A DNA stretch of 22,861 nt from a virus: the IMG/VR virus record IMGVR_UViG_3300050821_024063, positions 1 to 22,861 of that record. One strand, 5' to 3'. Below the pieces are notes generated by a model, which saw only the letters and a program-made list of their open reading frames with translations, was not told where the DNA came from and did no database searches. Position numbers and translations under genes: made by a program. This document shows, piece after piece, positions 3,446 to 7,905 of this stretch (positions are counted from its first letter, which is position 1; the number at the start of each line of letters is the position of its first letter).

Positions 3446-4936
3446 ATGGAAGGAGACGACGTAAGTTTGCAAGATTATCAAGGTGGATTCCTTGGCGGCC
3501 AAGCAGAAGGCGCTATGGAACTCTTGAAAGCCATGCAAGCAGGACAGATTACTGGTCGCGATACTGCGAATCAGAGCTTAACAATGGAGCCTCTGAAAGC
3601 AGAAAGCTTAGAGACAACTCTTAAATTGTTAGAATACAGGCAAAAGGATATCCGCCTATTAAATAGGATGCCTAAATTAACAGCATACAATACAGTAGAG
3701 GAGTTCTTGCAATTAGAATCTTATGGTCAGCAAGCTGGCGGGTTCTATAACGAAGGTGAACTTTCGGATGTTCAGGATTCTAGTTACGTAAGGCGTGCTT
3801 CTTTAATTAAGTACATTCAAGTAACAGGTGAAGTAACCATGCAAGCTCAAATGGTTCGCTCATTTGTTGATGCAATGCGCCAGGAAGTTGAAAATAAAAC
3901 AATGTGGATTCAGAGAAGAGCAAATATTGCCTTAACACAAGGTAATTCAAATACAGTTCCTCAAGAATTTGATTCATTGTATGTTCAACATGCTAATATA
4001 GGTACTGGAAGTGGAGATTATCTATATCCATCTCTTGCAGCATATTATGGTTCAAACGTAGTAATTGATCTTAGAGGTGAGTCTTTAAAACAGATTCATG
4101 TTGAAGAAGGAGCAGTAGCTGTAGATGCGAATTATGGTAACGTAAGTGATCTATTTGCACCGACTTCAGTTATTTCAACTTTATCTCAAGACTATTTTGC
4201 TAGTCAAAGAATTATGTTGAATGCAGGTAATCCTGATGCTTATAAAGGTCAAATAGGTACAGTAGCAAAATCAATTGCAACTACAATTGGTGATGTTGCT
4301 TTGCAACCTGATAAGTTTATTAATAAATATAATACTAATGGTATTACTACTGCAACTCCTGCAACTTCAAATAAGGCACCATCAGCTCCTACTGCTACTA
4401 GCAGAACTTTAGTATCTGATGCTGGTTCTTCTTATCAAACAGGAGATGCTGGAGCAGTGTATTATGGCGTTACAGCATTTAATCGTTATGGTGAATCAGC
4501 TATGGTAGTTATAGGTGCTTCTGTAACCTTAGCAGCAGCTTATTCAGTAGATTTAATCTTTACTGCAACTGCAGGCGCATACGCTCCTACAGGTTACAGG
4601 ATCTATCGTACGTTAGTAGGCGGTGCTTCAACAGGCACTTTCTATCCATTGTTTGACGTAGCTGTATCTGATTTGGCAAATGGTTATGATGGTGCTGCTG
4701 CACTTGCAATTCGTGATCGTGGTAGGATTCTTCCTAATACTGAAACTGCCTTTTTAACTGAAATGGTAGATGATGTATTAAGTTACAAGCAACTTGCTCC
4801 TATCAGTAAACTTGATTTGGCAATCATAAGTATGAGTCGTAGGTTTATAGCATTCAGTTTTGCTACTCCTCAGCTATATACTCCAAAGAAGTTTGTGAAG
4901 TTTGTGAATTGCGGTAAGGTACTTACCAATCCTTAA
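3446..4936 (+). CDS. Major capsid protein with Ig/FN3-like insertion
   Basis: A 496-residue protein forming the icosahedral shell. Following the Gly/Gln-rich N-terminus, residues 51-135 (SLETTLKLL, then a QKDIRLLNRMPK segment, EEFLQLESYG, GGFYNEGELS, SSYVRR) match a capsid-protein family common in phages of anaerobes and Bacteroidota. It directly follows the protease-scaffold gene, the canonical position. Residues about 305-415 form a Ser/Thr/Ala-rich segment with a YYGVTAFNRYGES strand and a GYRIYRT strand, typical of an Ig/FN3-like surface domain inserted in the capsid fold. Residues 28-51 repeat a segment of the upstream Nudix protein and may belong to a cleaved or targeting N-terminal region. 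The gene is noticeably richer in G and C, especially in its first 450 bases, than its neighbours, consistent with codon optimisation for high expression. A strong terminator follows. Confidence 0.9.
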   Translation: MEGDDVSLQDYQGGFLGGQAEGAMELLKAMQAGQITGRDTANQSLTMEPLKAESLETTLKLLEYRQKDIRLLNRMPKLTAYNTVEEFLQLESYGQQAGGFYNEGELSDVQDSSYVRRASLIKYIQVTGEVTMQAQMVRSFVDAMRQEVENKTMWIQRRANIALTQGNSNTVPQEFDSLYVQHANIGTGSGDYLYPSLAAYYGSNVVIDLRGESLKQIHVEEGAVAVDANYGNVSDLFAPTSVISTLSQDYFASQRIMLNAGNPDAYKGQIGTVAKSIATTIGDVALQPDKFINKYNTNGITTATPATSNKAPSAPTATSRTLVSDAGSSYQTGDAGAVYYGVTAFNRYGESAMVVIGASVTLAAAYSVDLIFTATAGAYAPTGYRIYRTLVGGASTGTFYPLFDVAVSDLANGYDGAAALAIRDRGRILPNTETAFLTEMVDDVLSYKQLAPISKLDLAIISMSRRFIAFSFATPQLYTPKKFVKFVNCGKVLTNP

Positions 4937-4958: not shown

Positions 4959-4988
4959 AAAAAGGAGAGTTAAATACTCTCCTTTTTT
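4959..4988 (+). terminator. Rho-independent terminator after the capsid gene
   Basis: A perfect 10-bp stem, AAAGGAGAGT (4961-4970) with ACTCTCCTTT (4976-4985), has loop TAAAT and runs into six T residues (4983-4988). It closes the head operon and insulates the tmRNA unit that starts about 50 bases later. Confidence 0.93.
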
Positions 4989-5035: not shown

Positions 5036-5369
5036 GGGGCCGATAGGTTTCGACAGGTAATGTAATTATAATATTTAAGTACCGCATGTTAGTAAGCGGT
5101 TAATAAATTACTTTCACAATTACAAAAGGCAAGGTTAAATATCTTCCTGGAGTTATGGCTGCTAAAGCAACCAATACTTGCGAGTTGAGAAAAGTAGCGT
5201 AAGCTATTCTTAGGAACAGAAATTCTCAAATAGTTATATTTCTATAAAAAATAAAAATTGCTCTCTCATTCTTTTGTTAGTACGATAGTAAGATAAATTA
5301 ACTAACTAAACTTATAACAACTATTATGAGGATTTATTTTGGACAGGGGTTCAAATCCCCTCGGCTCCA
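5036..5369 (+). ncRNA. ssrA: Transfer-messenger RNA (tmRNA) encoded by the phage
   Basis: tmRNA rescues stalled ribosomes, acting first as an alanyl-tRNA and then as a short mRNA that tags the nascent chain. A 7-bp acceptor stem pairs GGGGCCG (5036-5042) with CGGCTCC (5362-5368), with discriminator A5369. The D-arm region carries the hallmark TTTCGACAGG. The T-arm has a 5-bp stem (5345-5349 with 5357-5361) and loop TTCAAAT. CCA is not encoded. An H-type pseudoknot PK1 is complete: 5081-5085 with 5096-5100, and 5091-5095 with 5108-5112. Helix H5 pairs 5185-5191 with 5223-5229 and 5193-5198 with 5203-5208, placing the tag stop TAA (5200-5202) in its apical loop, as in known tmRNAs. The frame ending there can resume at GGC 5128 (15 nt after PK1; 24-residue tag ending TCELRKVA) or at a later codon such as ATG 5155. 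The unit is flanked by terminators. Identity is firm; the resume codon is inferred. Confidence 0.95.
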
Positions 5370-5373
5370 CAAA

Positions 5374-5500
5374 CTCTGATTCGCCGTTAGAGAAGACTCT
5401 TATACAACAACGGACAAGGCTAAGATGGGTAGCAATTCTCTTATGAAAGGTAAAGGAAGTCCCAATAGGTAGCGGGTGGTTGACCAGGTATAAGAGTCTT
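5374..5500 (+). ncRNA. Compact structured RNA of unknown class downstream of tmRNA
   Basis: A perfect 13-bp stem (5393-5405 with 5488-5500, AAGACTCTTATAC and its complement) encloses 82 nt that are much richer in G than the surroundings. Directly abutting its 5' base is a hairpin (CTCTGA 5374-5379 with TTAGAG 5387-5392, loop TTCGCCG), so the two helices could stack coaxially. The hairpin loop/stem CCGTT (5384-5388) can alternatively pair with AACGG (5409-5413). Inside are a GCTA/TAGC hairpin (5419-5433), a short GGAC/GTCC pairing (5412-5415 with 5459-5462), and two copies each of GGTAGC (5428, 5468) and CTCTTAT (5397, 5438). The second CTCTTAT could compete for the 3' arm. No start codon with a sensible frame is evident. 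It lies 5 nt after the tmRNA and just before a terminator, so the two are probably co-transcribed and cut apart. I do not recognise the class. Confidence 0.6.
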
Positions 5501-5690
5501 AATTTAAAGTAGTAAACCAGATTACTTTTTTGTCTTTATTTGGAATAGACTTATCATAAGGATATTGATAAGTAAGTATTAAAGTAACATCTTCTGTATC
5601 TTTATTCAATTCAATATATATCTCAGTATGAGGAATGAAAAAGTTATGATTATTAGGTATATTAGTTTCTTTATTCATATTCTTATACAT
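5499..5690 (-). CDS. Small hypothetical protein on the opposite strand
   Basis: This is the only plausible minus-strand gene: up to 63 codons, reading toward the RNA island. It occupies the otherwise unexplained 160 bases after the terminator. A minus-strand TATCTTTA element (5703-5696) lies only five bases before the first ATG (5690). With a transcription start about 7 nt past that box, the second ATG (5678, giving 59 residues) may be the true start. The protein is hydrophilic, Asn/Lys/Thr-rich, with an alternating IYIELN...VTLILTYQYPY segment that suggests a small beta structure. It has no signal peptide, membrane segment or family I recognise. Its last codons overlap the terminator at 5506-5531 and the final two bases of the structured RNA, so the two transcripts would be antisense at their 3' ends. 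It could still be a chance frame. Confidence 0.4.
   Translation of the reverse strand: MYKNMNKETNIPNNHNFFIPHTEIYIELNKDTEDVTLILTYQYPYDKSIPNKDKKVIWFTTLN
5506..5531 (+). terminator. Probable terminator of the tmRNA/structured-RNA unit
   Basis: AAAGTAGT (5506-5513) pairs with ATTACTTT (5521-5528) through one G-U, with loop AAACCAG and a T run to 5531. The stem is AU-rich and weaker than the one at 4959. It lies within the 3' end of the opposing small gene. Confidence 0.6.
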
Positions 5691-6999: not shown

Positions 7000-7905
7000 A
7001 TGGAAAAAGCTGTTATACATAAGACACCAGCTCCTAGTGGAGCTAATGGAACTCAATCTAATTTTATTAAGAGCGCTTTCGATACTCTTATTTGGAATAA
7101 GGGATATCGAGTAACTATTGAAGAATGTTTAAGATGTCCTTGTAAAGGAAAAGGAACTAATCAACAATCAGATTGTCGTAATTGTGGAGGAACTGGTTAT
7201 GTTTTTATCAATAAGAGAGAAACAAGAGCAGTTATTCATTCACAAAATATGAATACTAAATTTAAGGAATGGTCAGAGGAGAATGCTAGTCAAGCATCAG
7301 CTACTTTTATGCAAGAAGAGGAAGTATCATTTATGGATAGAATAACCGTACTTGATACAAATGCTATTCAAGAACAGGTTTTATTTTTAATTGAACAAGT
7401 AAATGGTAATGATGAGAGTAGAAGTTCTAGTGAGAGTGAAAGTCAAAGTACATTAATTAAAGATTCAGCTTTTTATTTTGCTTCTACATATGATATAAAA
7501 GAGATAAAGTATATTGGAATTTATAATGGTAGTCAAAATCCAATTGTACCGTTAGTATATGGTACAGATTTTACTTATAAGGGAAATCGTATTATATTGT
7601 CAACAGCGACAGCAAGGAAATATATAGATACAGCAAAAGAAGGAAATCAAGATGTAAGTATTACTCTTCGTTATATGTATGCTGTTCAATATCATGTAAT
7701 AGATTTACCTCGTGAAACAATTCAAACTAATACAAAATTTGGAGAAATTGATGAAGGAAAAACAGGAGTAAATCTTCCAATTCATGCTCAATTAAGAAGA
7801 AGTCATTATGTTTTAGATGAACCTAATTTTGATTATAATCGCTTAAATGATAATAATCATAAGTTTAAATATTCAGAAGTAAATCCTCCTAAGAGTAAAT
7901 GTTAG
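7000..7905 (+). CDS. Neck/virion protein with DnaJ-like zinc-binding motif
   Basis: A 301-residue protein starting nine bases after the previous stop. Its N-terminal part carries C43, C46, C48, C59 and C62 with Gly spacing (CPCKGKG and CRNCGGTG), which resembles the zinc-binding CxxCxGxG repeats of DnaJ and likely binds one zinc. The rest contains beta-rich segments (VSFMDRITVLD, IKYIGIYNGSQNPIVPLVYGTDF, ITLRYMYAVQYHVIDLPRE) and a Ser/Glu linker near 143-152. Proteins of this build occur in the neck region of large Bacteroidota and related myophages. The role is most likely head-tail joining, but no specific function can be read from sequence. Its final seven bases overlap the next gene. Confidence 0.65.
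   Translation: MEKAVIHKTPAPSGANGTQSNFIKSAFDTLIWNKGYRVTIEECLRCPCKGKGTNQQSDCRNCGGTGYVFINKRETRAVIHSQNMNTKFKEWSEENASQASATFMQEEEVSFMDRITVLDTNAIQEQVLFLIEQVNGNDESRSSSESESQSTLIKDSAFYFASTYDIKEIKYIGIYNGSQNPIVPLVYGTDFTYKGNRIILSTATARKYIDTAKEGNQDVSITLRYMYAVQYHVIDLPRETIQTNTKFGEIDEGKTGVNLPIHAQLRRSHYVLDEPNFDYNRLNDNNHKFKYSEVNPPKSKC

Follow-up and report, generated by a model that had tools for sequence, protein, structure and literature searches.

Why phages carry tmRNA is unsettled: the gene may provide extra rescue capacity, or it may change the fate of the tagged chains. This question is raised by a tmRNA gene with a long, basic tag in a virus record of 22,861 bases whose head and tail module is of the SPO1 type; the whole record was analysed here and is called the window. 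A virus group with host-divergent tags, tag ends conserved as peptides, and two gene architectures makes the question directly testable.

Mycobacteriophages that carry tmRNA include Bxz1, Cali, and Wildcat. Published carriers also comprise, besides mycobacteriophages, Bacillus phage G (PMC4131195) and Bradyrhizobium elkanii phages (PMC12656738), while the tmRNA database holds 79 phage sequences and gives a modal tag length of 10 aa (PMC11915505). An earlier note on this DNA was right that phage tmRNAs are established, but its example of some mycobacteriophages understates how common they are: a survey published in 2021 covered 18,146 phage genomes and found tmRNA in 402 (PMC9004378). In the same survey, 53 of 133 unique tmRNA structures were two-piece, and the tmRNA gene of the type found in the marine phage Melnitz has the permuted form and shows a relationship to the ssrA of alphaproteobacteria (PMC9004378). 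Both that gene and the window gene are phage-carried; the latter differs in its standard form and in a tag of the GK...A family.

The earlier note placed a complete tmRNA at positions 5036-5369, and its coordinates are right. The covariance-model search matched Rfam RF00023 (tmRNA) at 5036-5372 over model positions 1-374 with 81 bits (gathering 47) and E 2.7e-30. The mature 3' end is discriminator A5369, and the match to 5372 only extends over the CCA columns. The acceptor, T-arm, PK1, and H5 with the stop in its loop, all named in that note, were found by direct pairing. The parts of the gene are as follows:

5036-5369, plus strand: standard (one-piece) tmRNA gene, CCA not encoded (RF00023, 81 bits, E 2.7e-30)
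5036-5042, plus strand: acceptor stem 5' strand GGGGCCG, pairing with CGGCTCC at 5362-5368 (direct pairing)
5046-5054, plus strand: D-arm motif GGTTTCGAC (sequence)
5081-5112, plus strand: PK1 pseudoknot with 5-bp stems 5081-5085/5096-5100 and 5091-5095/5108-5112 (direct pairing)
5128-5202, plus strand: tag frame GKVKYLPGVMAAKATNTCELRKVA and stop, with resume codon GGC 5128 and stop TAA 5200-5202 (best resume candidate on the related-tag profile)
5186-5212, plus strand: helix H5, stop codon inside the GTAA tetraloop at 5199-5202 (direct pairing)
5345-5361, plus strand: T-arm of 5 bp (5/5 pairs) with loop TTCAAAT (direct pairing)

All seven acceptor pairs form, the third being G3:U70, the alanine identity pair; with the complete T-arm, they make up the tRNA-Ala-like domain of a tmRNA. 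PK1 is of the H type, the tag frame follows it after a 15-nt spacer, and the stop lies in H5. P2 is weak and A+T-rich, as judged by direct pairing. The gene is not of the permuted two-piece form (RF04321), since the 5' acceptor strand is encoded first and cmscan matches RF00023 only. The MFE fold alone fails to recover the tmRNA structure, and it was left out of the evidence. The window gene is confirmed as an intact standard-form phage tmRNA. It resembles bacterial ssrA of the standard type (RF00023) in its full-length match, Ala-type acceptor, TTTCGAC D-arm, PK1, and H5 loop stop; however, it is phage-encoded and its 24-aa basic tag ends in LRKVA. An IMG/VR search with its exact 5' end gave no match. 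ARAGORN at default settings does not detect it. Consequently, routine annotation would skip this tmRNA, and phage tmRNAs are undercounted.

The phage structural region described in the earlier note is borne out by a phage profile search, which identified the major head protein (PHROG 752), a head maturation protease, and baseplate genes in the window. Two features lie directly upstream of the tmRNA:

3446-4936, plus strand: major head (capsid) protein gene, 496 aa (PHROG 752, 1e-70; 61.5% identity to the MA9V-3 protein)
4959-4987, plus strand: terminator-like hairpin, a 12-bp perfect inverted repeat followed by a T run, which would end the capsid transcript

By capsid, the closest named relative is Chryseobacterium phage MA9V-3, and Bacteroides phages come next at 37-38% identity. 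Because these are the nearest named relatives, a Bacteroidota host is likely for the window virus. A scan of genomes for capsid relatives recovered only Myxococcota and Planctomycetota MAG contigs.

The reading of the tag depends on the point of resumption. The earlier note proposed GGC 5128, 15 nt after PK1 and with A at -4, and a tag of 24 residues with a charge of about +4 that stops at TAA 5200-5202. Length, charge, and stop are correct, as GKVKYLPGVMAAKATNTCELRKVA has 24 aa and a net charge of +4. A 24-codon open frame is by itself not improbable. Start and end profiles were built from the relatives' tags with the window left out, the start profile using only tag sets found without a tag pattern. 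Among the resume candidates at positions 5110-5189, GGC 5128 is the top position; against a background of this one window only, 17 of 29,385 stop-free positions (5.8e-4) score as high. All other resume codons and frames in that interval score lower. The score of the last five residues is equalled at 4 of 2085 window stops, and comparison of upstream sequences places an A at -4 in the window and in nearly all relatives. On the window-free profile, the tag belongs to the GK-type family, but partially at positions 4-5: only Lys-2 and the ends match, position 4 being Lys instead of Ile and position 5 Tyr instead of Asn. Lys-2 is encoded by AAG in the window and by AAA in the relatives. As far as sequence comparison reaches, the frame from GGC 5128 to TAA 5200 is supported by the tags of related phages, many of which belong to one family.

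The capsid relatives were found without reference to tag sequence. The RF00023 search placed 8 of 50 IMG/VR records with capsid homologues above the cut-off, and the RF04321 (permuted) search 7 of 43, MA9V-3 among them, giving fifteen capsid relatives with tmRNA (8 standard, 7 permuted). Their tags, read with ARAGORN and by eye from genes distant from that of the window, include GKVVNLFNNPVQAAA, AKVIQMNPFQAVATAA, GKTINFSNAPLRAVA, and GKVINLFGNTVQAAA, as well as GKAKNFSMRRRSVHRMMRAAA, AKVINLFTPQMRFAA, GKQINFRPSFSPMRFAA, and GKVLTMPSMNAPMRAAA (list not exhaustive). Most start with G/A-K-[VTQ]-[IV]-[NQ]-[LFM], the sixth residue being bulky and hydrophobic, and the family end is [LMV]R-x-[AV]-A or similar. 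Every confidently read tag, those of L218 and L219 with their ambiguous resume codon not being counted here, has Ala as its final residue, mostly as Ala-Ala, and one ends in -RAVA. Their charges range from 0 to +7, that is, from neutral to basic.

The closest comparison is with the capsid homologues MA9V-3, L220-L223, L225, and L227 (permuted) and L214 and L215 (standard), which have long neutral-to-basic tags, most starting with G/A-K and all ending in Ala, as in the window. The window tag is longer than most of these and shares its -VA end only with L222; in many of these relatives, by contrast, the gene is permuted and the D-arm reads TTTTGAC. Judged from these readings, the tag family is common to both gene forms, and the window tag is not a single-virus oddity. 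The earlier note called the tag striking, which is justified in that it is long, basic, and unlike the host type; however, it is not unique, since its family is spread over related phages. The open-licence literature yielded no description of a GK-type tag family or of permuted tmRNA in Bacteroidota phages. While phage tmRNAs are already known, the tag family across both gene forms thus appears undescribed in the open-licence literature searched.

Several further observations concern these genes. The known permuted tmRNA lineages are alpha- and betaproteobacteria, cyanobacteria, and mitochondria. The permuted genes of the Bacteroidota-type phages MA9V-3, L220-L223, L225, and L227 score 50-65 bits with RF04321; that of MA9V-3 lies at L009:2767-3125 (PV245944.1, 22766-23124), and that of L225 encodes the strongly basic tag GKAKNFSMRRRSVHRMMRAAA (+7). 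L218 (1501-1916) and L219, identical in sequence, hold a standard-form tmRNA candidate of 48.5 bits, in which a tag frame runs uninterrupted through about 72 codons to a final RVEAEQELELAA and two stops, while stops are abundant in the other frames; the tag may be a giant one, with about 65 residues.

The host-type tag used for comparison is GENNYALAA (9 aa, charge -1), seen in 8 virus or prophage contigs that were selected by pattern for that tag and serve as a reference, not a census. It is presumably the Bacteroidota ssrA tag type, which the earlier note described as short, beginning with G-E and ending in ALAA; the literature search found no papers giving host tag strings. Thus a long, basic (+4) window tag stands against a short, acidic (-1) host-type one. 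The Bacteroidota-type ssrA genes with GENNYALAA in this comparison are one-piece, unlike the permuted phage genes.

Conservation was assessed by codon comparison of sixteen tags, of which five were found by a GK codon pattern that fixes codons 1-2 only. In the relatives, the last Ala shows 88 synonymous and 0 nonsynonymous pairs, Ile-4 63 and 29, and the penultimate position 67 and 29, whereas the variable middle shows at most 10 synonymous and at least 100 nonsynonymous pairs. Because the codons of conserved residues differ synonymously and those of the middle nonsynonymously, selection on the peptide is indicated at both tag ends. In a quick tmRNA tree, the window gene groups loosely, on long branches, with the capsid relatives L213, L214, and L215 (support 85) and stays apart from the host-type group with GENNYALAA (support 99). 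On the capsid tree, the gene form switches between standard and permuted no fewer than 4 times; this count is only indicative, since recombination may act on the capsid gene and the tmRNA gene independently. One such switch separates the sisters L084 (permuted) and L085 (standard), both of which have GKV tags. These patterns suggest that tag type tracks phage group more than gene form.

The reading preferred here is also the most economical: trans-translation would run in its ordinary way, but with a tag specific to the phage. Host alanyl-tRNA synthetase and host SmpB would load the phage tmRNA into ribosomes stalled during infection on broken or stopless mRNA. After resuming at GGC 5128 and adding Ala plus GKVKYLPGVMAAKATNTCELRKVA, the ribosome would terminate within the H5 loop at TAA 5200 and be recycled. 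Host proteases would most likely still receive the tagged chain by way of its Ala-ending C terminus, and the long basic N-terminal part would be a phage-group tag design in place of the short acidic tag of the host. Host SmpB and proteases would be needed, because searches of the phage group detected SmpB in none of 43 related records and ClpP in none of 26. A working tmRNA carrying this 24-aa tag is very likely on the evidence of the gene, and the whole account, with host SmpB and proteases, is considered likely. We infer transcription, charging, tagging, proteolysis, and a benefit to the phage. That the tag is still degradative is somewhat favoured; in sequence, its end KVA looks compatible with the ssrA degron recognised by ClpX, which consists of hydrophobic or small residues and has Ala at the C terminus. 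The suggestion of the earlier note that a tag without LAA escapes ClpXP is unsupported, given the Ala ends of the relatives' confident tags, including -RAVA. Among ssrA variants in E. coli and Salmonella, LVA was degraded fastest, ahead of AAV and ASV (PMC11003136); consequently, the absence of LAA is no argument against proteolysis. The annotated clpX gene of MA9V-3 was considered as a source of a phage tag partner and rejected, as Pfam identifies its product (279 aa) as a generic AAA ATPase, and 42 related records contain no match to it.

The alternative that survives best, although rather unlikely, is a non-degradative or re-targeting tag, by which rescued chains would be kept from degradation, moved elsewhere, or passed to a different protease; the basic GKx..N/Y-hydrophobic N terminus would bind a phage or host factor or avoid host adaptors. 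The shift from -1 in GENNYALAA to 0 to +7 in the phage group would fit it, as would an N-terminal motif that is conserved as a peptide and recurs in standard and permuted genes. However, the strict conservation of the last Ala is what a ClpX-type degron would show, the rapid degradation of -LVA tags elsewhere (PMC11003136) points the same way, and no phage protease or adaptor was identified. The conserved basic start may serve to bind or to evade an adaptor, or it may be there because of the RNA context around the resume codon. Unlikely as a joint claim is the bolder version, in which Bacteroidota-type SPO1-like phages use tmRNAs of their own, in two interchangeable gene forms, to swap the acidic GENNYALAA for a long basic tag; some phage or host factor would recognise the conserved GK[VT]IN[LFM] start of this tag, which would put the chains rescued during infection under viral control.

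The site of the gene bears on another alternative, namely that the tmRNA is a host ssrA copy which was picked up passively or is decaying and has no role under selection. Between the capsid gene and the forward gene that follows it (head/tail) there is a gap of 848 bases, in which the tmRNA lies. This gap is 107 bases in MA9V-3 and short in L010 and L013; in L003, a cold-shock-domain gene (7600-7791; PF00313, 4e-18) takes the place of the tmRNA. Judged by these contents, the post-capsid site accepts cargo and is a hotspot for it. The nearest capsid relatives L003, L010, and L013 have no tmRNA at this site, so purifying selection on the window gene itself is seen in no close homologue; the gene was either gained by the window lineage or lost in the other relatives, and its distribution in the clade is patchy. 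An intergenic cargo site and this distribution are what a passive copy would lead one to expect. However, all defining stems are intact, the tag fits the phage-specific family and not the host tag, and the sequence falls outside the host-type group in the tmRNA tree, which makes such a copy quite improbable. Highly improbable is a role mainly in competing with host tmRNA by titrating SmpB, as reported for RNAs with a tmRNA-like domain, for although a tRNA-like molecule of the mycobacteriophage DS6A type inhibits tmRNA (PMC4131195, PMC11915505), DS6A has no tag frame, whereas the window gene keeps a complete PK1, tag, and H5 and a peptide-conserved tag.

Directly downstream of the tmRNA, positions 5373-5500 hold a second candidate structured RNA with a 13-bp perfect closing stem (5393-5405/5488-5500), a fold z-score of -2.7, and a possible CCGTT/AACGG pseudoknot; it has no Rfam, phage, or plasmid homologue and no convincing one in related phages. 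The same inserted stretch contains a 63-aa ORF on the minus strand (5499-5690) with no Pfam match. At 438-1802, a Nudix-hydrolase domain lies inside a 454-aa protein; another match of this protein is to PHROG 15528, a portal-protein profile that itself includes a domain of this kind.
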